Origin: Verrucomicrobiota bacterium
Lineage (GTDB): Bacteria > Verrucomicrobiota > Verrucomicrobiia > Limisphaerales > J093
Length of the DNA: 45,339 bases
Reading direction: 5' to 3'
Assembly (NCBI GenBank): GCA_012517065.1
Contig: JAAYVR010000004.1
Coordinates: 1 to 45,339, forward strand
This document shows positions 16,312-38,109 of this stretch, in pieces. Within the stretch, counting starts at the first letter, position 1; the number at the start of each line of letters is the position of its first letter. The notes under the pieces are model-generated. The model worked only from the letters and a program-made list of their open reading frames with translations, made no database searches and had not been told where the DNA came from. The position numbers were made by a program, and so were the translations under genes.

Positions 16312-17364
16312 TCATTCTGAAGATTGGCTGTAGGAAGCGCGAATCTGCTGTCGCACAGGTTCGGGCACGGTCTTCAACAGGCGATCAAGCTCATCGAGGC
16401 TGACATGTTGTCGGAGCCATTCTGTTCCGCGTCGTTGAAGCCGAGGGTCGGTATCAGCAGCGACCTTCAACATGAAAACGCCTGTCAGATGGCGCGGAAT
16501 ACTTGACTGCTCGAACACATCGACCATTGCCGATCTCACAGGCAAAGGTTGATCCGGGTAAAGCTCGGCGAGTTTGAAAGGCATTGATGGATTGGCCCCA
16601 GCCACGGAAGTAAAAGCTCTTTTTGCTCTGTCGCGTGTTTTGCTGTCTGGCGACCCGAGCATGACGAACAGCGGTTGCGACGATTCGAGATCGAGCTTGC
16701 GCAGCACCTGGATTGTTGCGGTGATTTCGGTGTCGCTTCCGCTTGTCGCAAGAAGGTCGAGCAAATCCGGCAGCGAAAGGGCGGCCTCACTCCCGTGTTC
16801 GGCGAGAATCGAGAGGATGTGCAATCTTGCGTCCTGCGGCGCGGTCTTGAGCGCCTGAGCAAGGGGCGGCAGGGCGTCTTTTCCAATGCGAGAAAGAGCA
16901 TGGACAGCAGCAAGACGCACCATGGGACTGCGGTCGGCAATGGCATTGATCAGGTCAGGTATGGCCGGTGCTGCGGCGGGGCCAATCAAGCCTAGACCTT
17001 GTGCAGCGCGTTTGCGATGCATGTCGAAGTCGGCCGGCTTGATGAGCAGATGGAGTTGGCGCTGTGCCCAACGCGGGAGCTGAGGGCCGATCTTTCGGTA
17101 TGTTGACAGGAGGAACGAGTCTTTCCGGTTGAGGATGTCTCTGAGTGTTTGGACTGCGTTGCTGCCGGCGAATGTCATGGTCTGTTCTGCGGCGAGGCGG
17201 GCGTTTTTATCTGAGGCGTCGAGGTCTGCAAGCCATTCCGTCAAGGTGCGTCCATTGACTGCGATAGGCGGCTTGCGAAATGCATTCGCGAGCAGGCCAA
17301 TCCCGACAGCAAAACCCAAGCCGGCAAAAAGAAGCAGGAACAACCGGCGTCTTGTGAGTCTCAT
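16312..17364 (-). CDS. Membrane-anchored HEAT-repeat protein
   Basis: A 350-residue protein with an N-terminal signal anchor (RRRLFLLLFAGLGFAVGIGL, residues about 6-25), so it is probably periplasmic or outer-leaflet attached. From about residue 120 it has HEAT/PBS-like helix pairs (AAAPAIPDLINAIADRSPMV, VRLAAVHALSRIGKDALPPL), a scaffold fold for protein binding. It is the last gene of the secretion operon, 30 bp after the response regulator. A start upstream of ATG 17364 is not needed. The role is unknown; in this position it might be an accessory factor for the secretion machine or simply a passenger gene. Confidence 0.7.
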   Translation of the reverse strand: MRLTRRRLFLLLFAGLGFAVGIGLLANAFRKPPIAVNGRTLTEWLADLDASDKNARLAAEQTMTFAGSNAVQTLRDILNRKDSFLLSTYRKIGPQLPRWAQRQLHLLIKPADFDMHRKRAAQGLGLIGPAAAPAIPDLINAIADRSPMVRLAAVHALSRIGKDALPPLAQALKTAPQDARLHILSILAEHGSEAALSLPDLLDLLATSGSDTEITATIQVLRKLDLESSQPLFVMLGSPDSKTRDRAKRAFTSVAGANPSMPFKLAELYPDQPLPVRSAMVDVFEQSSIPRHLTGVFMLKVAADTDPRLQRRGTEWLRQHVSLDELDRLLKTVPEPVRQQIRASYSQSSE

Positions 17365-17394: not shown

Positions 17395-18780
17395 TTATCT
17401 GTCTGGATCGACCCTGTAACCGAGAGCGCGAAGCCTTTGAAGTTTGTAAACGAGAGTGCGCCTGCTGATGCCAAGGGCGCGGGCGGTCTCGGTGCGATTG
17501 AAGTCATGTTCGTGAAGTGCTTTCGAGATTGCCTCGAGTTCAATTTCTTCCAGGCTGCGTGCTGACGTTGTGGATGGAGCCGGCGTGCTGTCCGGATTCA
17601 GAGTTGCCTGTTGGATGCCAGCCAAAGTTTGCGTTGCCTGGCGAACGCGAGCAGGAAGGTGTTCGGGAAGGACCAGTTCGCCCCGGGACAACAACGCAGC
17701 GCGTTCCATTGCGTTTCTGAGTTCGCGGACGTTGCCCGGCCACGAATAATTCTCGAGGCAATCGATCACCGATGGCGAGAACCTTGCACGACCCTGTGTG
17801 AGCTCGGCCAGGAACTGGCTGGCCAGCGGGATGATATCCTCGCGCCGTTCGCGCAGGGGCGGGATGTGAATCTCGACCACATTGAGCCGATAGTACAAGT
17901 CTTCACGGAACCGGCCTTTCTTGACTTCTTCCTCGAGATTTCGGTTTGTGGCGGCGAGGATTCTTGCGCGCGTGTGCAATTCCACGTTTGATCCAACGCG
18001 CTGAAAGCAACCATCATGTGTAACCCGAAGGAGTTTGGCCTGCAGATGCGGCGACATTTCAGCGATTTCATCAAGAAAAATTGTGCCGTTTGATGCCAAT
18101 TCGAACCGGCCTATGCGCTGGGCAACTGCGCCTGTGAACGCCCCTTTCTCGTGGCCAAAAAGCTCGCTTTCCAACAGTGTCTCCGGAATCGCAGCACAGT
18201 TGACCTTCACCAGCGGACCGGATGCGCGCGGGCTCCACAGATGAATGACTTCGGCCACAATTTCCTTGCCAACGCCACTCTCGCCGGTGATCAGAAGACG
18301 AGTTTCAGACGGAGCGACCAGAGCCGCTTCGCGGAAGACGGCCTGTGTGAGCGGGCTTTCGGCGACGATACCCGGCGGGAGGCGTTTTTGTTCAAAAACG
18401 GCTGGGCCGGCTCCGGCAATTCCGGTTGCTTTTCGGACCAGAGCAAGGAGCTCATCAAGGTCAATCGGTTTTGCGAGGTAATCGACGGCGCCGTCGCGCA
18501 TTGCGCCGACGGCGTCGCGGATGTCGGCATATGCTGTGACCATGAGGACCGGGAGTGCAGAGTTTTGTCTGCGTGCCTGCCGGAGGGTTTCGAGTCCCGA
18601 GATGCCGGGCATGCGAACGTCGGAGATCATCATGTCGATTTGCTCTCGGCCAAGGATGTCGAGGGCTTGTTCGCCCGAGGCGACGGCGATGGTTTGGAAG
18701 CCCTGGTTTCGGAGGAACGAGTCCAAAAGGCTTCGTTGGCCGGCATCATCATCTACAATCAAGACGCGTGGAACGTTCAC
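17395..18780 (-). CDS. NtrC-family sigma-54-dependent response regulator
   Basis: A 461-residue protein that starts at GTG. It has three parts: a receiver domain (1-120) with the acidic pocket D10-D12, phospho-acceptor Asp54 (ISDVRMPG) and Lys104; an AAA+ domain (about 135-370) with Walker A GESGVGKE (166-173), the sigma-54-contacting loop GAFTGA (213-218) and Walker B IFLDEI; and a Fis-type helix-turn-helix at the C-terminus ([19 protein letters not shown]). All key residues for phosphorylation, ATP hydrolysis and sigma-54 contact are present. It lies 30 bp after the histidine kinase gene, its likely partner. A natural target is the sigma-54 promoter at 33755-33771, upstream of this same operon. 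Confidence 0.93.
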
Positions 18781-20440: not shown

Positions 20441-21646
20441 TTAACGTCTTGTTTTCTTGGCTGGTTTGGCCTTGGCAGGCGGGCTGTTTGTCACAGGAGG
20501 AACATTCCCGAGGAACGACTCGAGTTCGCTTTGTGTGAAAGCTGATTGCGACGCGCTAGCTGCGGAACGTTCGGCGCTCGACATGGCCGCGAGCTCGGTC
20601 GGCGTATCGACGATAGTCGGGGTCAGGAATATTAGCAGTTCGGTTTTTGTATTGCTATCGACGCGGTGGCGGAAGGCTGCGCCCAGCAATGGTATGTCAC
20701 CCAACAACGGTATTTTGCTTTCGGCGCGTTGATTCTGTTTTTCCATGAGGCCGCCGATGATAACGGTTTGGCCGTTGGGAACGACCACGACCGTATCTGC
20801 TGATCGCGAGTTGATAACCGGGGAACTGATTGTACCGCTTGGGCCGCTTGAAGTTGTAACCCACTGGCTCTTGTCTGCGAGATCGGAGATTGTTGGTGTG
20901 ACAATCATCTCGACCATGCCGTCCGACGTTATGAACGGAGTCACGGTCAACTGAATTCCTACCGTGCGGTAACTCACCGTATTGTACTGGTTCCCAAGCG
21001 TGTCGAATCGCGTGCCGCTAATGATTGGGACCTCTTTGCCGAGGCTGATGGTTGCCTGCTGGTTGTTCCGGGCAAGGATGGATGGGCGTGACAACACCTC
21101 GGTCTTTCCTGCGCGGGCTATTGCACGGAGCGTGGCCTGGTAATCGTTCGCAAGCACGGTGTACAGCCCGGCTCCTGGTGGGATCGGTGCAAAGCCGGAA
21201 ATGGGCTGATTGAATACATTGACGTTTGAGTTAACGACGCTGCCCAGACCCGAAATGCCGAAGGCGTGTGCTGCGCTGCCCTGTGCGGCGCCGTTGATCG
21301 ACCTGCTGATGCCGCCCTCGACACCGATGTCGAGGTCCTTGCTGTAGGTGGCTTCCATGAAAACCACTTTGATCAGGACTTGTGGTGGGCGGCGGTCGAG
21401 GTTCGTAACGACGTTGGCAATGTACTGAGCGGTTTCCTCGTCGGTTACCACCACCAGCTTGCGGGTTTCCGGGTCGCTCATAAACGTAGCAGCGCCTATT
21501 GAAGTTGCGCTCGGGTATGTGGTCGTGCCCGTGCGCCCAAATGCACCCCCCATCCCGAACTGGGCACGTGCTTCAGACGCGGCGAAAATGGCCAAGACCG
21601 CGGTCAAGCCGGCCAGGGCTTTGGAAGTTAATGTCGAGGTTGGCAT
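20441..21646 (-). CDS. gspD: Secretin core (outer-membrane channel) protein
   Basis: The 401-residue product has its own signal peptide (about 1-28, ending EARA) and a short FGMGGAFGRTG stretch. One N-type domain follows (LVVVTDEETAQYIANVVTNL), then the secretin domain (about 85-355): QVLIKVVFMEA, EVLSRPSILARNNQQATISL, VGIQLTVTPFI, VVVPNGQTVIIGGLMEKQ and KIPLLGDIPLLGAAFRHR. These are the classic beta-barrel/gate motifs of GspD/PilQ. At 401 residues it is far shorter than GspD (about 650), because the N0-N2 domains are encoded by the separate upstream gene. The C-terminus is Lys/Pro-rich. It lies 52 bp downstream of that gene. Confidence 0.88.
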   Translation of the reverse strand: MPTSTLTSKALAGLTAVLAIFAASEARAQFGMGGAFGRTGTTTYPSATSIGAATFMSDPETRKLVVVTDEETAQYIANVVTNLDRRPPQVLIKVVFMEATYSKDLDIGVEGGISRSINGAAQGSAAHAFGISGLGSVVNSNVNVFNQPISGFAPIPPGAGLYTVLANDYQATLRAIARAGKTEVLSRPSILARNNQQATISLGKEVPIISGTRFDTLGNQYNTVSYRTVGIQLTVTPFITSDGMVEMIVTPTISDLADKSQWVTTSSGPSGTISSPVINSRSADTVVVVPNGQTVIIGGLMEKQNQRAESKIPLLGDIPLLGAAFRHRVDSNTKTELLIFLTPTIVDTPTELAAMSSAERSAASASQSAFTQSELESFLGNVPPVTNSPPAKAKPAKKTRR

Positions 21647-21698
21647 AATATGTCCTTTGGATTTTCGGTGTTAACTGAAAACAGTTTTTGTCGCCAAG

Positions 21699-23414
21699 TT
21701 ATTGTCCGCCCATGCGCATGCCGGTGTTGCCGAAGCCGGTACCGCCCATGCCGGTATTACGTCCGAAGCCCATGTTCATGTTTTGCTGGGCGCGTGTGTT
21801 CAACTGGCTTCCTGCTCGATTTTGGCGGGAAGAACGCGCCCCGGTATAACCGCTGCCATAGGTTTGAGCGGGAAAAAGGCTCTGCAGAATTTCCTGAACC
21901 TGTTCGGGGTCGCTGTTCTGAACATCAAACACGAACACTTTTTGTTTTCGTGCAGGGTCGGAGTCAAGGTCGGCGACCATGGCCGCGATCTGGTCCATGA
22001 GATTGCGAGCGGCGCTGACCACGACCGATCTTGTGCGTGGGTCGGGTACTGCGACCACGCGGGTTTGCTTGATGGCACGCTCGCTGGTGTTCGCCGTGGC
22101 CGCTCCTCTGGCTCCACCCTGACCGGGCATCATTCCACCAAACGGCCCCCCGCCGAATCTGCCACCAAACTGAAACTGCCCCCTGCCCCCCTGTTGGCTT
22201 GTGGTCGGGTCCGGAAACAAGCTGGTAAGAAGACTTGCCATTTCCTGCGGGTCCGCATACTGGAGGTGGAACACCCGCAGCTCGGTAATCTCATCGATGT
22301 TTTGGTCGAGTTCAGCGATCAGCCCTTCGATGACTGGCATTTGATCTTCCGGTGCGCTGACAACGACGGCGTTGCTGCGTTCATCGGCCACGGCTGTGAC
22401 GCGCGGCTGTGGCGCGCGCCCACCGGCAGGTGTGGGTGTCTGCGCCCCGTCACCGCCCTGCCCGCCGGGTCCGCCGCGCATGAAATTGAAGAACCGGCCG
22501 GGGCCGCCCTGTTGATTGCGGTTCTGCGCGGTGTCTTGCTGGAACAGTTCCTTTATCACATTGGCTACAGACTTGGCATCGGCATACTTGAGAACCGCGA
22601 CTTTGACTTTTGAAACGCTTGCGATTGCTGTGTCGAGGGCCTTGACGATTTCTGCGATCCTGCGGATGTGGCTCTGGGTGTCAGTAACGATGAGTGAGTT
22701 GCCACCCTCGTTGGCGACCATGGTTGTTTGAACGAGCGGCTGCAAGTCGCGGCTCAATTGCACTGCGCTGATGAACTTCAACGGAATGATCTGAGTCACA
22801 ACTTCGTCTGTAACCGGGATTTGCTGCGGGTCGCTCCCGGTAAGCACGGGGCTGTACTGAGACTTCATTTCGGTGTTTGTAACGATCTTCAGGAAACGGC
22901 CTTTGAGAACGGCGGCATAGCCGTTCTTCGCGAGGACGGAATTGAGCACCTCAACGGCCTCTTCCTTTGTAAGCGGCTGGTTGCTCCAGACATCAACTCT
23001 GCCTTTGACGTCCGCACTGCCGGGCATGATGATGAATCCGGCAGCCTCGCTAAGGTAATTCAGCACGAGCTCCAGAGGCGCGTTGCGGAAGTTCAGACGC
23101 AGACTGCGCTCGCCGTCGGCCGCAACATGGGTGGGCGAGGGCGAAACTTCCATTGTTTCCTCCGACGATGCGGACTGAGTGTCGGAGCCCGGTCTTTCCG
23201 CGTCGGACCCGGTACTTGCCGGCTTGGATTCGCCGGTGTTTGCCGGTGAAGTGGCGGGTTGCGCTGCCGGGGTCACCTGCGCAGGCGCGGCATTGGGATT
23301 ATCGGAGCCGCCGCCGGGCCGGTCAGATGGAACAGCGGCTGGCTGTGCCACGGCGCCGGCTGCCAGAGCCAGCGCCCAGCCGAACATGATTATCATTGTT
23401 GTACGCGTTTTCAT
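21699..23414 (-). CDS. Secretin N-domain protein (periplasmic half of a split secretin)
   Basis: 571 residues: signal peptide (about 1-23), a Pro/Ala/Ser-rich linker to about 100, then an N0-like domain (LRLNFRNAPLELVLNYLSEA). Three N1/N2-like domains follow, each ending in a VxxxxxSNxVVVSAxxxxxxxIxxxIxxLD pattern (about 205-275, 335-375, 455-500), and finally a Gly/Met-rich tail (about 535-571). The beta-barrel domain is absent and is encoded next door. The ATG overlaps the TGA of the PilP/GspC-like gene (23411-23414). The stop is genuine: the next gene carries its own signal peptide, so a simple frameshift cannot explain the split. Confidence 0.85.
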   Translation of the reverse strand: MKTRTTMIIMFGWALALAAGAVAQPAAVPSDRPGGGSDNPNAAPAQVTPAAQPATSPANTGESKPASTGSDAERPGSDTQSASSEETMEVSPSPTHVAADGERSLRLNFRNAPLELVLNYLSEAAGFIIMPGSADVKGRVDVWSNQPLTKEEAVEVLNSVLAKNGYAAVLKGRFLKIVTNTEMKSQYSPVLTGSDPQQIPVTDEVVTQIIPLKFISAVQLSRDLQPLVQTTMVANEGGNSLIVTDTQSHIRRIAEIVKALDTAIASVSKVKVAVLKYADAKSVANVIKELFQQDTAQNRNQQGGPGRFFNFMRGGPGGQGGDGAQTPTPAGGRAPQPRVTAVADERSNAVVVSAPEDQMPVIEGLIAELDQNIDEITELRVFHLQYADPQEMASLLTSLFPDPTTSQQGGRGQFQFGGRFGGGPFGGMMPGQGGARGAATANTSERAIKQTRVVAVPDPRTRSVVVSAARNLMDQIAAMVADLDSDPARKQKVFVFDVQNSDPEQVQEILQSLFPAQTYGSGYTGARSSRQNRAGSQLNTRAQQNMNMGFGRNTGMGGTGFGNTGMRMGGQ

Positions 23415-24046
23415 CGTGCTTCCCTTTCGCGTTGCTGCATTAGTCTTTTGACGATGTCGTCCATCTCGGGGCTCGAGCTTGCCCTCGAACTTTCAGACGT
23501 ACCGGCGGGCGAGGAGGTGGAACTCGAACCTTCAGAGGCGTAAGAACCACTGTACTCGCCCAAAGTCCATTCTCCCTCATCTTCGCGTCGCATCTGCATT
23601 CCGACCTTGAGTTCCTTGACGTCGTTTGTGCCGGACGCGAGCTTGACGCGGTCAGGCGCGATTTCCAGGACGGTATAACCGGCGATAGAGCCCTTGGCTC
23701 GGACAGCCTTTCTATATTCGGGGCTTGTGCCGTCAAAGAACGCAAACCGGCCTTTATCGTACTCTAGTATACCCACAAGGCCGAACGAGTCCACACGATT
23801 CGGCCGGCGGCGTTCGGTCCTGCGGGATTGGCCTGACCTGCTGGCATTGAAAATGTTTCTCTCCGAGACGATTCTGAACGTGGAATAATCTGGTGCTGGC
23901 GGGAGTTTTGCCGGTGCGTTTGTGGACTCGGCGGCCAGGCTGGGCAGAATTACCGCAATAACGGCTGTCAGAATGGGCAAAACGCGGGCGCTCCCATGCA
24001 AACTCGCAGGACAAACGATCTTTGCAATGGCAGAGGCGGTGTTCAT
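23411..24046 (-). CDS. PilP/GspC-like inner-membrane secretion protein
   Basis: A 211-residue protein with an N-terminal signal or anchor (PILTAVIAVILPSLA, about 24-38). It then has YSTFRIVSERNIFNASRSGQ, the FxLxxxRNxFxxxR signature at the start of the GspC/PilP homology region. A small beta domain follows (about 85-160: FGLVGILEYDKGRFAFFDG, GYTVLEIAPDRVKLASGTND), and a Ser-rich tail. GspC/PilP proteins link the inner-membrane platform to the N0 domain of the secretin. Overlapping start/stop pairs (ATGA) on both sides tie it to the PilO gene and the secretin N-domain gene, which supports that partnership. Confidence 0.75.
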   Translation of the reverse strand: MNTASAIAKIVCPASLHGSARVLPILTAVIAVILPSLAAESTNAPAKLPPAPDYSTFRIVSERNIFNASRSGQSRRTERRRPNRVDSFGLVGILEYDKGRFAFFDGTSPEYRKAVRAKGSIAGYTVLEIAPDRVKLASGTNDVKELKVGMQMRREDEGEWTLGEYSGSYASEGSSSTSSPAGTSESSRASSSPEMDDIVKRLMQQREREAR

Positions 24047-24585
24047 TGTGTTTGCTTTGGGTTTAGAACCAGGCCGCTAACCTGGAGTGCGAGAGTAATC
24101 TGCTGGCCGGTGTCGTCTCTGGCTGTCAGGTCAAGGTCCTGAATACGCAGGGCCATGGGGTCGGATTCGAGATTATACAAAAACCTGGTGATTGATGGGA
24201 GATCACCGCTCGAATCGATCCGACACTCGATCACTGCAGCGTCGCCTTCGAGGCGTTTCCAAGCGGGCTTGACCGAAGTAACAGTGGCGCGACTTTCCTG
24301 GGCCCAGCGATCAATGGCACTGCAAAGCTGGGCTTGTGCGGCCGAGGGATCGTTCGTCAGCACATGCGGCCTTCTGACGTCCCACCACGATTGGATAACC
24401 TGGGCGCGGTTTAACAACTGGTTGCCGCGCACGTAGGATTCACGCAGTTTGGCGATTTCGCCCGAGCGATTCTTCCACGCACCGATCAGCGGCTGGACGA
24501 TTAATCTGTCTGCGGCCAGCAAACCTACGGCGCCCGCGGCCAGAATTGCCAGTAACTGCTGTCTGTTTTTCAGGTCGATGTTCAT
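24043..24585 (-). CDS. pilO: PilO/GspM-like inner-membrane protein
   Basis: I start it at ATG 24585, which overlaps the TGA of the PilM-PilN gene (ATGA). An open frame extends up to 24858, but that part only shadows the upstream gene. The 180-residue product has a short cytoplasmic head (MNIDLKNRQQ), one transmembrane helix (LLAILAAGAVGLLAADRLIV) and a coiled-coil and ferredoxin-like periplasmic domain ending LALQVSGLVLN. That is the PilO/GspM plan. PilO pairs with PilN to hold the assembly platform. Confidence 0.75.
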   Translation of the reverse strand: MNIDLKNRQQLLAILAAGAVGLLAADRLIVQPLIGAWKNRSGEIAKLRESYVRGNQLLNRAQVIQSWWDVRRPHVLTNDPSAAQAQLCSAIDRWAQESRATVTSVKPAWKRLEGDAAVIECRIDSSGDLPSITRFLYNLESDPMALRIQDLDLTARDDTGQQITLALQVSGLVLNPKQTQ

Positions 24586-26102
24586 GGCTGTGTAGGCGGA
24601 TTCCATTGAAACTTGAACGTAAACTGGAGCGGAGTCTGGCCACGCATTGTTTCGAGCTCGACGTTCCGGACCCCCTGCACGTTGCGCAATTGCTGGAGAA
24701 CACGAAGCAACGCCTGGTTGCTGCGCGCCGTGCCCGAGACCGTGACTGTCCCGCTGTCGCGTAGCTGAATTGACTTGGCCGAAACAGTGCCGTCTTCGGG
24801 AAACACCTCGGACAATCTCCGGAGAATCGTCAGCACACGGCATGACCTGTCGAACCATGGACGGTACCGGACGATCTGTTCCTGGAGCTGTTCAAGGCGT
24901 GTAACTTGCGGCCTGATTCCAGCCCATTTCGACCGCCAATAACTGAGTTGAACCTGCTGGACAAGGAAAGCCAGCAACACAAGCAAGGCAACGCTGCCAG
25001 CCACGATGCCCACCGTCACAAGTTTCCGGGAAGTGTAACGAGAAGCGATTTGCTGCCAAATGCTGACCTTCGGAGGCAAGAATTCGAAAGCCGGTTTCTG
25101 CCCGCTCAACCATCTGACCGCAAGAGTCAATGCAGGCGAAATCTCTGTGTCCGGTGGCACGGAAAGCCCACACTCGGTATCCGTGCAGCACCTGACCTGT
25201 TCCACAACAACCCCGAGCGGTTCGAGTCTTGGCCGAAGCTGTTCGGCAAGTTCGTCGGCAGCGTCGTTGTGCCCGAATATGCGCACGCGTTTCACAACAT
25301 CGCGCATGTCGATCGGCAACTGTCCCAGCGTAATTCGGAGTTCGCGCGTGATATGATCGATCTGAAACCGACCGTCTTCGACTCCTTCATGCTCGCCGAC
25401 GCCTTCGATTGTTCTTAGAACTGCGATGCCACCGCCGACGCTGATCTGCATTGCAAGATTCTGCTCGCCGGGCAGCAGGGCGATAATGCCAGACTGACTT
25501 TCGCCGTCCACTTTTTGCAGGGCCGTTATGCCCAGGGAAAAGCTCACAGGCTTGAGTTGAGCCGCTTTCAGCACCGTCTCGAGCCGCGTCACATGCTCGC
25601 GCGGCACGGCAACCTGAAGGATGTACGATTCGCCAGCGGGCGTCTTGTAGCGCGAGCTGGCCATCATGAGCGACTCAGGCGGATACGGGAACCCGCGTTC
25701 GGCCTCGATCTGGAGAAAACTGGCGAGGTCTGCTTCGGGGATGTCTGGCAACTTGGTCGAGAGCGTCAGCACCCATGCAAGCGGAAGCCCAACCACACAA
25801 GTGCGTTCGCGTATTCCAGCGGAAGCGAGATGTTTCTGGATTTCACGACCGACGAGGACAGGATCATCCGTCAACAAGTTGAGCGACAGCGGTGCACTGA
25901 ACGAGTTCCGGATTTCGGCGGAACCATTGGTGCGTCTGATGAGGACGACCTGCATTGCGCCCCCCTCGAACGCCAGCCCGAGCACGGCCCCACCCGGTTG
26001 CCGGCGGTTCCGCAGAACCAAAGTGCGCCCTGCAAACCGCAGTTGCAGCTTGCGGGCCTTTGATTCTGGCATTTCGGTTGATTTGGTCTGGGCGTCGCTC
26101 AT
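24582..26102 (-). CDS. PilM-PilN fusion (GspL-like platform protein)
   Basis: The start is ATG 26102 (MSDAQTK); the open frame extends 12 codons further. It encodes 506 residues. The N-terminal about 350 form an actin-like PilM/GspL cytoplasmic domain (GAVLGLAFEGGAMQVVLIRR, then VGLPLAWVLTLSTKLPDIPE). One transmembrane helix follows (about 365-385, VGIVAGSVALLVLLAFLV), then a coiled coil and a PilN-like periplasmic domain (about 430-506, SIQLRDSGTVTVSGTARSNQ). In type IV pili these are two genes, in T2SS one GspL; here it is one. It lies 37 bp after gspK and overlaps pilO. It should dock the ATPase GspE to the inner-membrane platform. Confidence 0.82.
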   Translation of the reverse strand: MSDAQTKSTEMPESKARKLQLRFAGRTLVLRNRRQPGGAVLGLAFEGGAMQVVLIRRTNGSAEIRNSFSAPLSLNLLTDDPVLVGREIQKHLASAGIRERTCVVGLPLAWVLTLSTKLPDIPEADLASFLQIEAERGFPYPPESLMMASSRYKTPAGESYILQVAVPREHVTRLETVLKAAQLKPVSFSLGITALQKVDGESQSGIIALLPGEQNLAMQISVGGGIAVLRTIEGVGEHEGVEDGRFQIDHITRELRITLGQLPIDMRDVVKRVRIFGHNDAADELAEQLRPRLEPLGVVVEQVRCCTDTECGLSVPPDTEISPALTLAVRWLSGQKPAFEFLPPKVSIWQQIASRYTSRKLVTVGIVAGSVALLVLLAFLVQQVQLSYWRSKWAGIRPQVTRLEQLQEQIVRYRPWFDRSCRVLTILRRLSEVFPEDGTVSAKSIQLRDSGTVTVSGTARSNQALLRVLQQLRNVQGVRNVELETMRGQTPLQFTFKFQWNPPTQP

Positions 26103-26139: not shown

Positions 26140-27690
26140 TCATCTCACGGTTCCCAAGATGCGCGCTGCTGCTGCAGGGTCGGTACCGCTTGTCAGTTGC
26201 AATGCTTTGCGAATCTGACGGCCCAGCGGCCAGCCGAGCCTTGTCAGGTCTTGACGGTACAGAACCTTTGGCGTGCCGTCGCACATGTCGATCACAAATT
26301 TCACTCTGCGAAATCCCCGCCCGTAGTGTCCCACAGCAGCAATGTCCGCAGTGTACTGATAACTTCTGCTTGTGATGTAAGGACCAGCCTGAATCGCACT
26401 TTGGCGGTCAAGAACGTTTGCCACCCATGCAACAGACCGCAGATTGGCCGGGTTGCTGATCCGGTAAGAAACAAGTGCCGGCGCCATGTTGCTGCCAATC
26501 CCCGGCAGGCAAGCAAGAACAGCCTCCGAGGCGGTGTTCACATTCACAAGGCCGGGCATGTAACTGCTGTTCGTGGTGGCGATGTAATCCGCCACCTGAG
26601 CGAACTCATCTTCCGTCATGCCACTGATCAAGTAAAACTCGAGCGGACTTCCGAAACTTGGCGTGGGTGTGGGCTGTTGCGCTGGTTGGCCGCCGGGTTG
26701 GCCCCCTTGGCCGCGCCCGCCACCCTGTTGGCCCGGCTGGGCGCTGCCGAGTCCGACGTTAAGGAGTATTTCGTTGGCGCGTGTTGTGCCAAAGCGCTGC
26801 TGAAGCAATGTCGCGAGTTCGGTCTGGGCATTGGTGCTGGTGACATCAATTCGCTGTGTGCCGTCAAGGGCGGTGTTGGGTTCCCTGCTCCATATTGTCA
26901 GGTACTCGAACAACCCGGGGTCGAGACGTCCGTCAGCGTTGTCTGGCGGGGCGTTGGCGTCACCGTCGTTTTCGTTGAACTCGAGAACGCCGTTCATGTT
27001 CATGTCTTCGCCGTAGAGGACGGAGTTGGTCATTCCATATACAAGCCGGAGTTCTTCAACGGTCTCGAATGGCGCCTGTTTGCATCGGTATGGCGGGATG
27101 AAGTGCAAATAAATCTCTGGTGGAACACCAACTTCGAGGTTGGTCTGCGAAGCGTCGCGCCACGTGACTATGTTGGCAGCCAGATCAGGGGTCATCCTCG
27201 GCAGGCATTCGAGCATGGCTGCAGTGGCGGTGTTTAGATTCAGCTTGCTTGATTCATCCACCAGACCAAATGAGAGGTAGTCCGGCCCTGTTTGGATGAT
27301 GTTGGTGTTGCGTCCGATGACCCAGAACATTGCGTTGCCAACCTGAACAGCAGCCTGCTGGTAGCTCAGGAGATCGGGCAGTGAAGCACTGTTGGTCTGA
27401 ACCGTTGCGAGCAGATTTGTCAGATAACGCAAAGCACCTTCGATTGCCTGTTCTGCTTCGATTCCTGCCACGTAGTTGTCCGCTGCCCGGTATTCGGTGT
27501 AAGCCGATTGCGCAAAGTAAAGAGCCAATGCCACCAGCCCAAAGGCAATCCAAAGAACTATCACCAACACAGAACCACGCTCGCGATTCTTGGACGTCGC
27601 AAGACCAGCGGGCACACCCGGACCACAGACGGGCAGGGCCGCCCGGGCGGGCAGGCTGCAGGAATTGTTCTGTTGGACGATTCCCGTCAT
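26140..27690 (-). CDS. gspK: GspK minor pseudopilin
   Basis: The start is ATG 27690, overlapping the gspJ stop (ATGA). The 516-residue product has a long leader ending RERG before the hydrophobic helix SVLVIVLWIAFGLVALALYF, typical of GspK, which lacks Glu at +5. Family motifs follow: LVDESSKLNLNTA, LRLVYGMTNS and, later, LVNVNTASEAVLACLPGIGS (helix-hairpin-helix-like), spread over the usual long GspK body. A Gln/Gly-rich insert (GQQGGGRGQGGQPGGQPAQQ) lies in the middle. GspK caps the pseudopilus tip with GspI and GspJ, whose genes precede it. Confidence 0.88.
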   Translation of the reverse strand: MTGIVQQNNSCSLPARAALPVCGPGVPAGLATSKNRERGSVLVIVLWIAFGLVALALYFAQSAYTEYRAADNYVAGIEAEQAIEGALRYLTNLLATVQTNSASLPDLLSYQQAAVQVGNAMFWVIGRNTNIIQTGPDYLSFGLVDESSKLNLNTATAAMLECLPRMTPDLAANIVTWRDASQTNLEVGVPPEIYLHFIPPYRCKQAPFETVEELRLVYGMTNSVLYGEDMNMNGVLEFNENDGDANAPPDNADGRLDPGLFEYLTIWSREPNTALDGTQRIDVTSTNAQTELATLLQQRFGTTRANEILLNVGLGSAQPGQQGGGRGQGGQPGGQPAQQPTPTPSFGSPLEFYLISGMTEDEFAQVADYIATTNSSYMPGLVNVNTASEAVLACLPGIGSNMAPALVSYRISNPANLRSVAWVANVLDRQSAIQAGPYITSRSYQYTADIAAVGHYGRGFRRVKFVIDMCDGTPKVLYRQDLTRLGWPLGRQIRKALQLTSGTDPAAAARILGTVR

Positions 27691-28571
27691 GAGCTGGATT
27701 GTGCAGTCTGGTTGGTTTGGCTTGTTTGATTGGTCTGCGACTGAACGTAGATTGGCACCACAAGCTCGATTGGCGCCGGCGGTGTCAGGCGTTTCTCGCT
27801 GCCGGTGAGTTGGATGAGCACCTTGATCGCCAGCGGCAGCGAATTGGTCATCTGGGTCGAGTCCCAGTATGTTTGCCACTGCAACCCGTCGTAATAAAGA
27901 AATGCAAAGGTTTCAACACCGCTCAAGAGACGCTCCTGCGCCGGGTATTCGGGCACATCGGCCGGCAGCAGATTTCGAGTGACACATCTGACCAGGTCTT
28001 TCCCGGGCGCGCCGTTTGTTGATTCCATCAAGACATAACTGACCTGCTGTATGTCGGGCCACGGCAGGTTGTCATCGATGCTGCCCGTGGTTGTGTAAAA
28101 GAACGGGCTGGATTCGATTGCATCAACAAGCGGGATGGCGGTCAACAGCGAGCTACCAGATGCTGCAGAACCCCCTGAAGACCCCGCCGTGCTATAACCT
28201 GACGAAGCCGGCGACAACCCCATCAACGGACTCTGCAAACTACCCGAAAGTGTCCCGCCCGGCGGAACAATATTCGCAATATCCATCTTCATCAGCGTCA
28301 GCGCGCGTTGCAATGGAGCCAGTTTATCCAGTGCTTCCGCAGATTTGTTTCTGAGCCTCAGCGCACTGTAGAACACCACATTGATGGCCAGCAGAACAAT
28401 TGCAAACACGGCCACAGCTATCAGCAACTCGAGCAACGTAAAACCTCGCGCTGCCCGGCCGAAACGCTGTGGCTTGAACCGTCTTCCTGCAAACCCAGGG
28501 CAATACGCGGACACCCGCGCCGTTCTCTCAGCGAAAACGGTCGCTTTCGGCTGCGCCGCGATGTGTGACAT
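27687..28571 (-). CDS. gspJ: GspJ minor pseudopilin
   Basis: I start it at ATG 28571, 5 bp after the gspI stop; the open frame upstream only shadows gspI. 294 residues with a 43-residue basic leader, a prepilin cleavage site ARG/FTLLELL (Glu at +5) and the helix LIAVAVFAIVLLAINVVFYS. GspJ-type C-terminal features include CVTRNLLPADVPEYPAQERL and VETFAFLYYDGLQWQTYWDS. A low-complexity Gly/Ser insert (about 120-145) is unusual. It overlaps gspK by ATGA. It forms the tip complex with GspI and GspK. Confidence 0.85.
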   Translation of the reverse strand: MSHIAAQPKATVFAERTARVSAYCPGFAGRRFKPQRFGRAARGFTLLELLIAVAVFAIVLLAINVVFYSALRLRNKSAEALDKLAPLQRALTLMKMDIANIVPPGGTLSGSLQSPLMGLSPASSGYSTAGSSGGSAASGSSLLTAIPLVDAIESSPFFYTTTGSIDDNLPWPDIQQVSYVLMESTNGAPGKDLVRCVTRNLLPADVPEYPAQERLLSGVETFAFLYYDGLQWQTYWDSTQMTNSLPLAIKVLIQLTGSEKRLTPPAPIELVVPIYVQSQTNQTSQTNQTAQSSS

Positions 28572-28576
28572 TGGTT

Positions 28577-29041
28577 TCACAACAACGTTCCCGGGGCTAC
28601 GAGTGTGCTCAGTTGGACAGAATAATCCTGCCCTTGAACTGCAAATGACACCTCGACAGTGAGTATTTGCATCGTGACAGTCTGCAGTCCGGTCGAGTAT
28701 TGCGTCCAAAAATCCAGCTTTGACCTGTACCTGTACTGCAGGTCGCCTTCTTCGACGACACCGGTTTGGGCGGCACTGCTGGTCCGGGTTTGGCCTGTCA
28801 CTATCATCTCGTTCAAAAGCCGCTCTGCGATCCTCGTCGCCACAGTTTTGCGTTGGGCAACGGTGCTCGCGCGGCTGGCCACAAGCACACCCTGAACAGA
28901 CACCGGTATCACGATGGCCATGAACAGCAATGCAGCCAACACCTCGGCCAGCGTGAACCCGGCGCAACGGCGACGGAGGTCCTGCAGCCTCAGACCGGAG
29001 TTAACGCGCAACTTGTTGGAGTTGGTTTGTCTGAATTTCAT
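28577..29041 (-). CDS. gspI: GspI minor pseudopilin
   Basis: 154 residues; prepilin leader with cleavage at CAG/FTLAEVLAALLF (Gly28/Phe29, Glu at +5) and a hydrophobic helix to about residue 52. GspI-like QRKTVATRIAERLLNEMI follows. The gene overlaps the end of gspH by 41 bp (29001-29041), in a different frame. Confidence 0.85.
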   Translation of the reverse strand: MKFRQTNSNKLRVNSGLRLQDLRRRCAGFTLAEVLAALLFMAIVIPVSVQGVLVASRASTVAQRKTVATRIAERLLNEMIVTGQTRTSSAAQTGVVEEGDLQYRYRSKLDFWTQYSTGLQTVTMQILTVEVSFAVQGQDYSVQLSTLVAPGTLL

Positions 29042-29600
29042 AGCCGATGCGATTCTGCGATGCAGCTATGCAAACAGTTTGGTTTTCCTTTGTCTGCCGA
29101 ATCAGGATGCGGTCCGGACTTGTCTCGCTCAGATAACCGTCCGGGAGAAAACATATTACCCGCTGGCCGGTCCGGATTGGCGGTGCCATGGTCCAAAAAT
29201 TGGTCTGGATGATGGCTTGAGACTGTGGCAGCTCGATCTCGAGGGTGGGATCGACCGTGTACTGAAGAGCAAGCGGGTCCTCTTCGACGTATCCCGTTTG
29301 GGCTCTTAGTCCGTAAACCTTCTGCGCAGTGTCAATCCAAAGTATCATCGGAATCCCTTCGCTGGCGGCTCGACTCTGACCGTATCTTGTCAGGGCAAGG
29401 AACCTCCGCGCTTCGTGGTCAATTACCCGTCCCCGGAAGAACCGGGACAGTGAAGGCGCAGCATACCCCAGCACAACCACCAGCAAAGCCATGACCAGTA
29501 TCAGCTCGATGAGTGTGAACCCGGCGTGATACGGCTTTTCACGGTTGCGATGCCTGAGTTGGAGTTTGCCAGTTGGTAATGTCATCTTCGGTGCCTTCAC
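29001..29600 (-). CDS. gspH: GspH minor pseudopilin
   Basis: 199 residues (or 194 from ATG 29585); cleavage site HAG/FTLIELILVMALL with Glu at +5, then a helix to about residue 50. The GspH-type globular domain contains ARRFLALTRYGQSRAASEGI, a conserved feature of this family, and an IRTGQRVICFLPDGYLSET strand pair. It overlaps gspG at its start and gspI at its end. GspH links the minor tip complex to the main GspG shaft. Confidence 0.85.
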   Translation of the reverse strand: MKAPKMTLPTGKLQLRHRNREKPYHAGFTLIELILVMALLVVVLGYAAPSLSRFFRGRVIDHEARRFLALTRYGQSRAASEGIPMILWIDTAQKVYGLRAQTGYVEEDPLALQYTVDPTLEIELPQSQAIIQTNFWTMAPPIRTGQRVICFLPDGYLSETSPDRILIRQTKENQTVCIAASQNRIGYEIQTNQLQQVAR

Positions 29601-30021
29601 GTCCGTCCGGTCCCATCGAACTCAGATCATAGCCGTTTGGGTTGTGCCGGCCGGGATAAACATAGATGTAAGCGTTTTTCCATGGATCAAGTGGCACGGC
29701 CCCGTCTAGGTACGGCCCATGCCAGTTCTGCGCGTCGCGCGGCTGTTCAACAAGGTCTTGGAGGCTCTTTGGATACGACCCGTTATCCACCTCATACGCA
29801 TTCAGAGCGGTCTTGAACGTGCTGATTTGTGTCAGAGCCGCTGTCTTTCGCGCGCGCTCGGATGTGCCCGCAAAACGCGGAAGAACCAATGCCGCCAGCG
29901 TCCCCAGGATCACCAGTACTAGCAATAGCTCGACAAGTGTGAAGCCAGCAGACCGCCGCCGATGATTTGAACCGTGCGTTAGTGTTCGGACAATGATTGT
30001 TTCTGAACGGTGTGTGTTCAT
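29539..30021 (-). CDS. gspG: GspG major pseudopilin
   Basis: 160 residues; cleavage site SAG/FTLVELLLVLVIL (Gly26/Phe27, Glu at +5). The strongly conserved GspG region WHGPYLDGAVPLDPWKNAYI and YVYPGRHNPNGYDLSSMGPD follows, ending with GREGTEDDITNW. The acidic loop is the calcium site of GspG proteins. This is the shaft subunit of the pseudopilus. Its ATG overlaps the gspF stop (30018-30021), and its 3' end overlaps gspH by up to 62 bp. Confidence 0.93.
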   Translation of the reverse strand: MNTHRSETIIVRTLTHGSNHRRRSAGFTLVELLLVLVILGTLAALVLPRFAGTSERARKTAALTQISTFKTALNAYEVDNGSYPKSLQDLVEQPRDAQNWHGPYLDGAVPLDPWKNAYIYVYPGRHNPNGYDLSSMGPDGREGTEDDITNWQTPTQASQP

Positions 30022-31271
30022 TTTATGTACTGTTGGAGAGTGAATATCGGGATAACCATTCCGATGAAAATTGTGCCGATGAAACCTGCAATGAAAAACA
30101 GCATGACCGGTTCAGCAAGAGCAACCGCCGTCTTCAGCCGACGGTCCAACTCTGACTCGGTCACATCCGATATCCGAACCAGCTCCTGGTCAAGCTTGCC
30201 GCTTTCCTCCGCCACGGAAATCATTTCCAGAACCGAGCCCGGGAAAAGCATGGGACACTCAGCAAGGCTGGCACCCAGCGCCTTGCCTTCTTTGACGTGG
30301 TCGATGGCACTGCTGACAGCATCGACCAGAATCTGATTCCCTATTGACCGTCTGGCAACATTGAGACCGTTGATCAACGGAACCCCGGCGCTCAGCAACG
30401 TTCCCAGCATCCTGCAAAAGCGCGCCATCGCATACTGTGCGACAAGTGTCCCAAGTACCGGCAGCTTCAATATCACGCCCTCCCATGTGCGACGTCCGGT
30501 GGGCGAAACCATCCAGCTCCTCACCAGGTACGCTGCCACCACCAAACCCGCAACAACCATCGGACCGTACAGACGAATCGTGTCGCTGACACCCACAATA
30601 ATTCTGGTTATCAACGGCAACTGCGCGCCAAACCCGGCGAAAATGACCTGGAATTTCGGGATGAAGAAGACCAATAGGAACGTAAGCACACCCAACGCCA
30701 GCACCAACAGTATCGACGGGTACAGCAACGCGGTCATCACCTTCGTCCGCAGCTCTTTCTCGCGCGACTGAAAATCCGCAATCTGGCTCAATACAAGGTC
30801 GAGAAATCCGCCGGTCTCGCCAGCTTCAACCATCGCAACATAGACACGCGGGAACGTGTCGGGCGATTTGGCCATTGCATCGGCAAGCGACATGCCGTCC
30901 ACAACCAGGTCATGAATTTCTTTCCATTTTGCGCGCGCTGCCGGGTCGGATGTCTCCTTCTGAAGTATGACGAGTGCGCGGCTCAAGGGCACCCCGGCAG
31001 CCAACAAACTCGAGAGCAGGCGGGTGAAATTCTCGAGCATTCTTGGCGAAACACGCCGCGGACTTCCAAGTGACAGCGCGAACGGTTTGCCTGACCCGTT
31101 TGTTGGCGCCTTTTGAGCTGCGGGCTTGCCGTTGCCGCGTTCGACAAGACTGATCGGACGCAATCGCCGGCTTTCCATCTGCCGGAACGCCTCCTGCCGC
31201 CCGCTGGCTTCGAGCTCGCCTTCGGTGATCACACCGTCAGGCTGAAGTGCTTTGTATTTGAAGACTGGCAT
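30018..31271 (-). CDS. gspF: GspF inner-membrane platform protein
   Basis: 417 residues with two T2SSF domains (about 82-205 and 285-405). The first has FTRLLSSLLAAGVPLSRALV and MVEAGETGGFLDLVLSQIAD, the second MARFCRMLGTLLSAGVPLIN and VAEESGKLDQELVRISDVTE. Hydrophobic helices follow at about 180-200, 225-245 and 385-410. These are the standard GspF/PilC motifs. It starts 12 bp after the gspE stop and ends overlapping gspG. It is the hub around which the GspE ATPase turns. Confidence 0.93.
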   Translation of the reverse strand: MPVFKYKALQPDGVITEGELEASGRQEAFRQMESRRLRPISLVERGNGKPAAQKAPTNGSGKPFALSLGSPRRVSPRMLENFTRLLSSLLAAGVPLSRALVILQKETSDPAARAKWKEIHDLVVDGMSLADAMAKSPDTFPRVYVAMVEAGETGGFLDLVLSQIADFQSREKELRTKVMTALLYPSILLVLALGVLTFLLVFFIPKFQVIFAGFGAQLPLITRIIVGVSDTIRLYGPMVVAGLVVAAYLVRSWMVSPTGRRTWEGVILKLPVLGTLVAQYAMARFCRMLGTLLSAGVPLINGLNVARRSIGNQILVDAVSSAIDHVKEGKALGASLAECPMLFPGSVLEMISVAEESGKLDQELVRISDVTESELDRRLKTAVALAEPVMLFFIAGFIGTIFIGMVIPIFTLQQYIK

Positions 31272-31283
31272 GGGCGCGTCAGT

Positions 31284-33053
31284 TTAGCGGCGGACGGGCG
31301 AAACTGGTGACGGGCCGGCTGCCTCTGCAACAGCCGCTGGACTCCGGGGGACCGTGGACCAAGCGACTTCTTTTGCCGTTGTCACGCTCAACACTTCCTC
31401 GACGGTTGTAATGCCGAGTCTGACAAGCCGCCATCCGTCCTCAGCCAAAGTGCGCATCCCGGCACGGCGCGCTGCCTCGCGAAGTTTGTCTGCAGAAGCG
31501 CTTTTGAGGATCAACTCGCGAACCTCGTCATTAATGTCCATCCATTCGAATATGGCGTGTCTGTCGAAAAACCCGGTTTGCCTGCACTCGCGGCAACCGA
31601 CAGCCTTGTAAATGACTGCGTTGGGCGGGATGCCAACCTGTTCTTTGAAAGCCTGCGCTGCGGGTGATTTGTCTTCCTCTTTGCAGTGGCGGCAGAGCAC
31701 ACGAACAAGCCGCTGGGCCAGCACAGCTTCGAGCGAGGAAGACACCAGGTACGGTTCAACGCCCATATCGACAAGACGCGTCAAAGCGCCCGGCGCGTCG
31801 TTGGTGTGCAAAGTCGAAAACACAAGATGACCCGTCAGCGACGCCTGCACGGCAATTTGAGCCGTCTCGGTATCACGAATCTCACCAACAAGAATCACGT
31901 CAGGGTCGTGCCGGAGGATTGACCTGAGACCGCGCGCAAAGGTCAGCCCAGCCTTTTCAGAAACCTGAATCTGATTCACGCCTTTGAGCTGGTACTCGAC
32001 CGGGTCTTCAATGGTTATTATTTTCCGGTCTGAATCGTTGATTTCGCTCAGCGCGGTGTAAAGCGTCGAGGTTTTCCCACTGCCTGTGGGTCCGGTGACA
32101 AGAATGATGCCATGAGGGAGCTGCAACACCCGCTGGAAAGAGGCAAGAACACGCTCGTCCATTCCCAGTTCACGCATGCCTCTGAGAGTCGCGTTTTGGC
32201 GGAGGAGCCGCAGCACAACCGCCTCACCATGGATCATCGGAATGACCGAAACACGGATGTCAACCTCAGCTTCGTCGATCCGGACCTTGATTCGGCCGTC
32301 TTGCGGGAGACGCTTTTCCGCGATGTTGAGGTGACTGAGAATCTTGATGCGCGAGACTATGGCTGGCTGGAACCGCTTAAGCTGTGCCGGAACGGGCACG
32401 TCCTGCAAAACGCCGTCAATTCGGTATCTGATGCGAAATTCGTCTTCGAATGGCTCGAGGTGTATGTCCGACGCACGCAGTTCAATCGCGTCTCTGAGCA
32501 CCTGATTGACAAACCTGATGATCGAGGCGTCTTCGGCGGCAACATCAAGGTTGGTGTCTTCTTCCTGTCCCTCATCGACGACCTCGATTGGCGATTCCTC
32601 GTCGAGGGTGTCGATCGTGTCAGCGCCAACACCGAGGCGCTTCTTCATTTCGCGCTGGATGGCCTCGCTCGGCGCAAGAACAGGACGAAGTTTGAGCCCG
32701 GTCAGATTGCGCAGCGTGTCCAGGCCTTGCGTGTCAAAAAGCCGGCTTGTAGCAACCTCGACGATCCCATCCACCCGCCGCAGTGGAAGAAGCTCGTCCC
32801 TGAGCAACAGACGCGCCGGGAAAAGTGAAAGCACTTCTTTGTCCGGTTCGACGTCTTCGAGCGAAGTGTAAGGAAGACCGTATTCCTTTGCCAGCCAGCG
32901 CAAAACGTCTTCTTCAGACTGAATTGGCGCGGCCCCGGGGACGGCTTGTCGGCGCGCGAGCGTGCGAGCGTCCATGGCGGATAATTGCCGGGCAGCAACC
33001 ATCCGATCCAGCAGCTCATTTAACGCCGTGTCTGTATTTTCGTTCCCGTTCAT
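31284..33053 (-). CDS. gspE: GspE/PilB secretion ATPase
   Basis: 589 residues from ATG 33053 (a TTG at 33065 would add four). N-terminal MshEN-like region (about 15-140), then the T2SSE ATPase with LRASDIHLEPF, Walker A GPTGSGKT (325-332 counted from the TTG), the Asp box, Walker B ILVGEIRD (391-398) and the His box (GHLVFSTLHTND). Zinc-knuckle cysteines are C458/C461 and C491/C494 (CRHC, CREC). All catalytic motifs are intact. It lies 50 bp after the first gene of the operon and 12 bp before gspF. It powers pseudopilus assembly at the inner membrane. Confidence 0.95.
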   Translation of the reverse strand: MNGNENTDTALNELLDRMVAARQLSAMDARTLARRQAVPGAAPIQSEEDVLRWLAKEYGLPYTSLEDVEPDKEVLSLFPARLLLRDELLPLRRVDGIVEVATSRLFDTQGLDTLRNLTGLKLRPVLAPSEAIQREMKKRLGVGADTIDTLDEESPIEVVDEGQEEDTNLDVAAEDASIIRFVNQVLRDAIELRASDIHLEPFEDEFRIRYRIDGVLQDVPVPAQLKRFQPAIVSRIKILSHLNIAEKRLPQDGRIKVRIDEAEVDIRVSVIPMIHGEAVVLRLLRQNATLRGMRELGMDERVLASFQRVLQLPHGIILVTGPTGSGKTSTLYTALSEINDSDRKIITIEDPVEYQLKGVNQIQVSEKAGLTFARGLRSILRHDPDVILVGEIRDTETAQIAVQASLTGHLVFSTLHTNDAPGALTRLVDMGVEPYLVSSSLEAVLAQRLVRVLCRHCKEEDKSPAAQAFKEQVGIPPNAVIYKAVGCRECRQTGFFDRHAIFEWMDINDEVRELILKSASADKLREAARRAGMRTLAEDGWRLVRLGITTVEEVLSVTTAKEVAWSTVPRSPAAVAEAAGPSPVSPVRR

Positions 33054-33103: not shown

Positions 33104-33676
33104 TTACTCCGCTGAAAGCATCCCGTCCAAAACCAACTGCGCCTCCTGACGAACGGTCAGCACCGCTTTCAGGTCTTTCTCAGCTTGAGCGAGCTTGGCT
33201 CTCCTGTCCTTTACTGCATTGCGATAAGCCTCGAGTTTCTGCTTGATCTCGGCCGCTGGTGCATTGGACTCGATCGCGTTCCGCAGTGCTTCTGCCTCGG
33301 GCATCGGGGTGGCACCAAATCGAGCCCTCCGATCCTGTGCTTGATCGCCCTGCTGGCCCCCTCTCTGGCCGGGACCGCGGCCAAACATGCCCATCCCCAT
33401 CCCGCCGAAACCGACGTCACGGCGAGCTTCCATCACCTTTGTAAGGCGTTGTTCGATAACCTTCCACTCCGCGTCGTCCTTGACACCCAGACGTTCACGC
33501 GTTCGTTCCATCATGCGTTGCCGCATCTGTTCGGGGTCGAAAGCAGGGCGGTCGCCTCTGTCACCACGACCCTGTCCACCTTGTTGGGCCATCGCCGTGG
33601 TAGTTGTCAAACCGATTAGCAGCGCCACGCCGCCAATCGCCAGTGTTTTCATCCATCGATTCATACTTATTTTCAT
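33104..33676 (-). CDS. Small secreted Gly/Met-rich protein at the head of the secretion operon
   Basis: The start is ATG 33676 (or 33664). About 190 residues: signal peptide (TLAIGGVALLIGLTTTTAMA), Gly/Arg/Gln-rich start, then helical RMMERTRERLGVKDDAEWKV, a GFGGMGMGMFGRGPGQRGG low-complexity loop, and two more helices with the repeated pattern RNAIESNAPAAEIKQKLEAY and RRAKLAQAEKDLKAVLTVRQ. Its size and helical layout recall CpxP/Spy-type periplasmic proteins, but the LTxxQ motif is not clearly present, so that is only a guess. It is the first gene after the sigma-54 promoter. Confidence 0.65.
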   Translation of the reverse strand: MKISMNRWMKTLAIGGVALLIGLTTTTAMAQQGGQGRGDRGDRPAFDPEQMRQRMMERTRERLGVKDDAEWKVIEQRLTKVMEARRDVGFGGMGMGMFGRGPGQRGGQQGDQAQDRRARFGATPMPEAEALRNAIESNAPAAEIKQKLEAYRNAVKDRRAKLAQAEKDLKAVLTVRQEAQLVLDGMLSAE

Positions 33677-33754
33677 TTTTGTGTGTTTGCTTGGTTCTTT
33701 GGGGCAGCCGTCAGACTCACGATTAGCACGCCGACGCGCGTCCCGCCGCCCAGT

Positions 33755-33771
33755 GTGCAATTGGCGTGCCA
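33755..33771 (-). promoter_or_regulatory. Sigma-54 promoter upstream of the secretion operon
   Basis: Read on the minus strand, the sequence is TGGCACGCCAATTGCAC. This equals the sigma-54 consensus TGGCACG-N4-TTGC with the -24 GG and -12 GC at the correct spacing. Transcription would start near 33745, about 70 bp before the ATG of the first gene. The operon encodes an NtrC-type activator (17395-18780), so the promoter and its activator are physically linked. Confidence 0.75.
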
Positions 33772-33844
33772 AACCCGCTTTTGCCCCTCCCAGCCTGCGC
33801 GACGCCTCTCAAATGTGCAGAAGCTGCGCTGGTTTGGGTTGCAA

Positions 33845-33863
33845 CTGCGCATTTCCTGCGCAG
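33845..33863. promoter_or_regulatory. Inverted repeat upstream of the sigma-54 promoter
   Basis: CTGCGCA-TTTCC-TGCGCAG is a perfect 7-bp inverted repeat about 75-90 bp upstream of the -24 element. That is a normal place for an NtrC-type activator site, so it is a candidate enhancer. It could also be a chance palindrome. Confidence 0.4.
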
Positions 33864-33960
33864 ATTCGCCGAACGCGCGGATTGCGCAATGCCCCACAGA
33901 TGCTCCCCCGTTCCAATCCTCGGCCCCTGAACTTGGTGCAGAAACCCCGCGCATGCCGAC

Positions 33961-36900: not shown

Positions 36901-38109
36901 ATGAGCAAAAAGATTTCGCATAGGCGTTACAGAGAAGACCTTTCCGAAATGCCGGACTGGCTGAGGAAAAAAAAGTGCCCGCTCCGTGACAAGTTTTTGT
37001 CCGGACCGCGCATTCTGCCTCGAAATATCACTGGCAAGGAAAAGGTAAGCGACATCATCGACAAAACGTACCTTGCGTACAACGCGGCCCGCCTCAGGGA
37101 GGGCTGTCACTTGTTCGTAGAAAAAATGCTCGAACCGGACGTGACAATTGGCATGAGCTTCGCCGGCGCTCTCACGCCGGCCGGTCTCGGCTGTTCGTGC
37201 ATCATTCCCCTCATCAAAGCGGGGTTTGTGGATTGGATAGTAGCCACTGGTGCCAACCTATACCATGATTTGCATTTCGCCCTTAACTACCCGGTTCACG
37301 TCGGCAGTTTCAAAATGGACGACACCGCTCTCCGGAACAATGATATCGTCCGAATCTATGATGTCCTCCTCGGGTACAGCGATTGTCTGATGGCCACCGA
37401 CGAGATTCTCCGAAGCATTCTCGTTCAGCCCGAGTTCCAGCGTGAAATGGGCACCGCGGAACTTCATTATCTTCTTGGCCGTTATTGTGCCGAGTGGGAA
37501 CGCAAGAACGGACTCAAGGACGTTTCCGTCCTCGCGGCAGCGTATCGCGCGGGTGTCCCCTGCTACACCAGTTCTCCGGGCGATTCAACAATCGGAATGA
37601 ACGTCGCCGGTGTTGAGCTTCGCGGAAACAAGCTCCGAATTAATCCGTCCATTGACGTTAATGAGACGACCGCCTTCGTTCTGGCGGCAAAACGGTCCGG
37701 AGGCAAGAGTGGTGTGGTGCTTTGGGGTGGTGGGAGTCCAAAGAACTTCATGCTCCAAACAGAACCACAGATTCAGGAAGTTCTCCGGATCAAGGAGTAT
37801 GGTCAGGACTATTTCCTGCAGGTCACAGACGCAAGGCCTGACACCGGCGGGCTTTCGGGTGCCACGCCGAGCGAGGCTGTTAGTTGGGGGAAGGTCGATC
37901 CTGCCAGTCTTCCGGATGCAGTGGTCTGTTACACTGACAGCACAATCGCGATGCCTTTGTTTACCCACTACGCTTTGGCTCAGCACAAACCGCGCAAGCT
38001 GCGCCGACTTTACGATCAACGACCGGCTCTGCTAAAGGCTCTTAAGAAGGAGTACTTCGCCCACAACAAGGTCAAGATGATCGACGGCAGCGAGCCTGTA
38101 ATCGATTGA
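36901..38109 (+). CDS. Deoxyhypusine-synthase-like enzyme
   Basis: 402 residues, close to the length of eukaryotic/archaeal DHS. It contains [52 protein letters not shown] (NAD/spermidine region), and [15 protein letters not shown] with Lys331, which aligns with the catalytic lysine (human Lys329). Bacteria lack eIF5A, so the product is more likely a homospermidine- or other polyamine-forming enzyme. It could also be a member of unknown function. ATG 36901 has no Shine-Dalgarno sequence in front. tRNA-Cys lies 175 bp downstream. The intact active-site lysine suggests it works. Confidence 0.88.

Follow-up and report, generated by a model that had tools for sequence, protein, structure and literature searches.

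A predicted sigma-54 promoter with paired enhancer sites upstream of a type II secretion operon in Limisphaerales (Verrucomicrobiota)

Gene content of the locus

The window analyzed here, i.e., the whole stretch of 45,339 nucleotides, carries on its minus strand an operon for a type II secretion system (T2SS), with a predicted regulatory region upstream of it (Table 1). GspE, GspF, GspG, GspJ, GspK, GspM, and a secretin are all encoded in this one operon, which identifies it as a T2SS; the inspected intergenic gaps are about 10 to 55 bp, and the genes are presumably cotranscribed. The secretin is encoded by two open reading frames and not as a single-chain GspD, which is the usual, though not strictly defining, form in T2SS. 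The same split into an N-domain ORF and a C-terminal channel ORF (20441 to 23414 in the window) is found in the inspected relatives (L155 to L171 and L264 to L268), mostly with a separate signal-peptide-like start on each piece. A split GspD has been described for the mitochondrial T2SS-like systems of protists (PMC8134430).

Table 1. Predicted regulatory elements and genes of the T2SS locus (window positions)
Feature	Position	Strand	Basis
Single further TGCGCA, within ATTGCGCAAT	33883..33888	-	Read from sequence
Predicted enhancer site A, TGCGCAGGAAATGCGCA, perfect 6-5-6 palindrome	33846..33862	-	91 bp ahead of TGGC, counted from its T; sequence conservation
Predicted enhancer site B, AGCGCAGCTTCTGCACA, 10/12	33814..33830	-	59 bp ahead of that T; spaced 32 bp from site A
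Predicted -24/-12 sigma-54 promoter element, TGGCACGCCAATTGCA	33756..33771	-	12/12 consensus; kept in 69/73 activator-bearing genomes
First gene: helical protein of 190 aa, secreted, carrying a Gly/Arg-rich loop, possibly Spy/CpxP/CnrX-like	33104..33676	-	Orthologs in 194 of the 293 Limisphaerales genomes
GspE ATPase	31284..33053	-	T2SSE, 2e-138; MshEN
GspF	30018..31271	-	T2SSF, 4e-61
GspG, major pseudopilin	29539..30021	-	T2SSG, 7e-31
GspH-like pseudopilin	29001..29600	-	N_methyl; position
GspI-like pseudopilin	28577..29041	-	Prepilin signature GFTLAEVLAALLFMAIV
GspJ	27687..28547	-	T2SSJ, 7e-11
GspK	26140..27693	-	T2SSK domains
GspL-like (PilM/PilN type)	24582..26102	-	PilN, 1.6e-5; position
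GspM	24043..24591	-	T2SSM_b, 7e-7
GspC-like	23411..24046	-	Weak GspC_delta, 8e-4; position
Secretin part 1: signal peptide, N0, Secretin_N domains	21699..23414	-	Domain matches
Secretin part 2: C-terminal secretin domain, preceded by a separate signal-peptide-like start	20441..21646	-	Domain matches; sequence reading
Sensor histidine kinase; two apparent membrane spans flank a large extracytoplasmic segment	18811..20397	-	HisKA, HATPase_c; spans read from sequence
NtrC-type response regulator: receiver, AAA+ with GAFTGA, Fis-type HTH	17395..18780	-	Domain matches
HEAT-repeat protein, possibly the last operon gene	16312..17364	-	Domain match; 30-bp gap

The operon also encodes a sensor histidine kinase and a response regulator whose three domains define an NtrC-type activator. 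Both genes are found on the same strand, 13.4 to 16.4 kb downstream, as the preliminary description of this DNA had it. The regulator is neither an orthologue of NtrC (nitrogen regulator I; 423 bits versus the TIGR01818 cut-off of 559) nor PrsR (324 bits versus a cut-off of 503), and the pair does not represent ZraR and ZraS (392 of 760 and 174 of 479 bits, respectively, far under the NCBIfam equivalog cut-offs). Its orthologs, mostly 63 to 77% identical, are found in about 130 of the 293 genomes of the order Limisphaerales and are clearly separate from the paralogs, which show ~45% identity and reach only about 48%. The genome encodes ten strong sigma-54 activator domains, i.e., nine in addition to this one, and contains a single rpoN match.

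The product of the first gene has no significant sequence match in the PDB. The Metal_resist domain (Pfam family PF13801) is matched by 5 of 41 orthologs of this protein (best value, 1.5e-5), the window's own protein not being among them. The structure nearest to its AlphaFold model (mean pLDDT, 76.7) is CnrX, and Spy and CpxP are also listed, with Z-scores of 5 to 7, among unrelated helical chains. As a lead, the protein might belong to the Spy/CpxP/ZraP/CnrX superfamily.

The plus strand near the operon contains a gene for a bacterial deoxyhypusine synthase-like protein (PF01916, 1.6e-64; 36901 to 38109) and, past the operon's end, one for a restriction-like protein with the GmrSD N-terminal (DUF262-type) domain (13760 to 15520).

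The -24/-12 element and the upstream palindromes

The promoter element, which consists of TGGCACG and TTGCA separated by CCAA, matches all 12 defined bases of the sigma-54 consensus TGGCACGN4TTGCW, including the GG and GC dinucleotides 10 bp apart, and 79 bp separate its -12 end from the ATG of the first gene (33676). The preliminary description, which reported a consensus-perfect promoter about 80 bp before the first gene, was accurate on both points. By itself, however, the perfect match is weak evidence, because exact matches to the consensus (two in the whole 5.26-Mb genome) are no more frequent there than matches to the reversed control pattern (also two). Within the window, it is the only exact match; matches with up to 2 mismatches number 11, the same as in shuffles, so that only the exact match is informative.

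The operon might instead be driven mainly by a housekeeping or internal promoter, with the -24/-12 match being incidental. Sigma-70-like matches do occur inside the operon, including a 10/12 match before secretin part 2, and chance alone would yield about two exact -24/-12 matches per genome. The chance copy in this genome, however, is intragenic, being located within an RHS-repeat-like ORF, which leaves one copy genome-wide that lies between genes. The case for the predicted promoter is carried by its position and its conservation.

Conservation was scored in the DNA upstream of the first gene in 114 loci from Limisphaerales, 73 with an ortholog of the regulator and 41 without it, by looking for GG-N10-GC sites that score at least 9/12 and are located 30 to 180 bp upstream. 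Such a site is found in 69 of the 73 genomes with the orthologous activator, compared to a mean of 5.5 (maximum, 11) in dinucleotide shuffles, 2 in the reversed sequence, and 4 on the opposite strand; a conserved element at this position in related genomes was what the preliminary description had proposed to search for. Bases outside the required GG and GC are also kept (T in 69, C in 64, A in 65, and the T before GC in 67 of 71 upstream regions), whereas the spacer bases vary. With position, spacing, and nonrequired bases all retained far above the shuffles, an incidental match appears very improbable.

The -24 element is preceded in the window by two 17-bp palindromes of the form TGCGCA-N5-TGCGCA (sites A and B), and the perfect form, site A, is present in a single copy in the whole genome. 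The upstream regions of 71 relatives contain 142 TGCGCA words, compared to 11.7 in shuffles, with peaks at -91/-80 and -59/-48. A palindrome is found near -91, counted from the T of TGGC, in 60 of these relatives and near -59 in 57, and the spacing between the two is mostly 29 to 34 bp. This 6-5-6 layout with a three-turn spacing is the geometry of NtrC enhancers. The NtrC enhancers of glnA are paired 6-5-6 palindromes located about 32 bp apart with the half-site TGCACC; the palindromes described here share the paired layout but have the half-site TGCGCA and lie nearer to the promoter. Judged by their conservation, sites A and B are predicted to provide an upstream enhancer for an activator. 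On the comparative evidence, the predicted promoter and enhancer are real elements.

Distribution of the regulator and an ECF-like element in its absence

The -24/-12 element and the enhancer are found together in 69 of the 73 genomes that encode the regulator but in only 1 of 36 that do not, these counts sharing ancestry among the genomes, which the Fisher values computed for them do not take into account. The latter number omits five genomes because their contig ends make the absence of the activator unjudgeable: in G051, G189, G087, and G008, the operon is on contigs of 3 to 6 kb, and the 9.5-kb contig of G140 ends less than 2 kb after the start of the first gene. What looked like a class having the promoter and lacking the activator was made up of these five genomes. 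The lone activator-less genome with both elements, G181, keeps the kinase at the end of its operon and groups with G207, in which the regulator gene is unlinked, so that its lack of a regulator may be no more than a gap in the assembly. Among the regulator-bearing genomes, G045 has the activator in the operon with an ECF-like element and no -24/-12 element, and G028 retains only the -24 half. On the GspE tree, the promoter and activator states change about 5 to 6 times; independent contrasts of activator versus promoter type number 2 on well-supported branches and 5 on all branches, which alone is not significant.

The co-occurrence and the genome-unique palindrome suggest this promoter as a target of the activator. 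The nine other strong activator domains of the genome, and the location of the regulator gene outside the operon in some relatives, would also fit a true sigma-54 promoter that is driven by a different activator, with the kinase and regulator of the operon controlling something else. However, the palindrome occurs just once in this genome and follows the presence of this particular regulator throughout the order, and the regulator itself is well conserved and has paralogs of at most about 48% identity, which makes control by another activator quite unlikely. The operon's own regulator very probably belongs to this promoter and enhancer.

Both the -24/-12 and the enhancer motifs are missing from most of the activator-less genomes. 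A different element, GTAAC-N17/18-GTC, is found a short distance before the same first gene in 34 of the 41 activator-less genomes, such as L155 (G003), L157 (G001), L158 (G186), and L169 (G211), compared to 3 of the 73 with the activator and 0 of 114 on the reversed or opposite strand. It combines AAC and GTC elements with a fixed spacing and a conserved place, as in promoters of the ECF type. Nearly every member of a deep clade of 27 belongs to this type, and G001 and G003 retain an orphan kinase at the T2SS operon end, with no ortholog of the regulator found in either genome. The element is apparently an ECF-type promoter, found where activator-bearing genomes have the sigma-54 one. However, the pattern GTAACC-N16/17-GTCT is not enriched genome-wide above its reversed control, and no sigma factor has been linked to the element, the ten neighboring proteins scanned at activator-less operons including no ECF sigma factor.

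It seems, then, that the T2SS operon has changed its sigma factor, with independent switches too few for statistical proof, and the direction of the change is not given by the tree because it is rooted at midpoint only. As an addition compatible with sigma-54 control in the window, it is on balance somewhat probable that an ECF-type sigma factor controls the operon in relatives and that the sigma-54 system replaced the ECF promoter or the reverse. The alternation at the same gene would represent a natural case of sigma-factor replacement. A more tentative reading, to which we give rather less weight, is that the same operon has switched within one order between sigma-54 with a dedicated two-component system and the ECF-like promoter, and that the kinase and the first, periplasmic protein form a sensor of the envelope or secretion state that tunes the synthesis of the machine.

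The predicted circuit and related systems

In five relatives (G011, G061, G173, G207, and G120), the activator ortholog is encoded elsewhere with no kinase beside its gene, and the kinase and the T2SS promoter region, with its TGCGCA words and a -24/-12 site of at least 9/12, stay with the operon. The conserved arrangement is therefore a kinase in the operon and a regulator in trans, and the persistence of the promoter and enhancer words where the activator has moved (G173, G207, G120, and G011) is as expected of a trans-acting regulator. Neither an enhancer palindrome nor a -24/-12 element is found upstream of the relocated regulator in the loci scanned (G061, G173, G207, and G120), the G207 locus having one 10/12 match downstream of the gene. 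Autoactivation of the regulator would thus be confined to some lineages, and the loop would be optional, though plausible in the window. The feedback between the channel and its own transcription proposed in the preliminary description holds at most as the gene order in this genome, and the unlinked regulator in five relatives argues against anything more general. Its other proposal, that a sigma-54 promoter drives the T2SS operon, gains strong support from the order-wide conservation of the predicted promoter, the newly recognized enhancer pair, and the absence of the promoter where there is no activator.

It is highly probable, in our view, that the T2SS operon is transcribed by sigma-54 from the promoter at 33771 to 33756 on the minus strand and activated by its own NtrC-type regulator at sites A and B. 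The membrane kinase encoded near the operon end would phosphorylate the activator, dimers of which would bind palindromes A and B, three helical turns apart. Bound activator would then remodel the closed complex via DNA looping, and sigma-54 RNA polymerase would start near 33745. Read-through of the operon would raise the level of the kinase and, in this genome, of the activator as well, which would close a conditional positive loop. The kinase might sense, at a guess, an envelope or secretion-load signal, perhaps modulated by the possibly Spy/CpxP-like product of the first gene. The defined promoter, two predicted enhancer sites, and a named regulator represent a directly testable circuit that is kept throughout an order of Verrucomicrobiota whose genomes are mostly metagenome assemblies.

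The novelty that the preliminary description saw in sigma-54 control of a T2SS operon is tempered by a 2025 genome-scale study that predicts such promoters for T2SS genes, mostly those of Myxococcia and less so those of Polyangia and Planctomycetia (PMC12316311). Those promoters are likewise computed -24/-12 elements but come from another phylum and a class-level enrichment; the part of the study consulted names no enhancer or operon-borne activator and mentions Verrucomicrobiota classes only for other functions. In an earlier survey, sigma-54 is linked to the exterior of the cell, and secretion is one of the overrepresented categories (PMC3162934). No paper that joins sigma-54 and T2SS in Verrucomicrobiota was found in the literature searched. 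T2SS machines export degradative enzymes, and the regulation of their synthesis outside Proteobacteria is little known.

The predicted circuit resembles several known systems. PrsK-PrsR of the XrtA/PEP-CTERM system is also a two-component pair that works with sigma-54 and is associated with an export system, but there is no exosortase among the identified genes of the operon described here. ZraP-ZraS-ZraR consists of a periplasmic Spy-like protein, a membrane kinase, and an NtrC-type sigma-54 activator, which would correspond to the candidate Spy-like first protein, the kinase, and the activator of the T2SS operon; here, however, the predicted target is a secretion machine, and the ZraS and ZraR scores are as low as noted above. 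In the PilS/PilR system, a membrane kinase and an NtrC-type regulator, together with sigma-54, control a type IV pilin gene, i.e., a component of a related type IV filament machine. Whereas PilS/PilR targets the pilin gene, the promoter described here heads the whole T2SS operon, kinase included.
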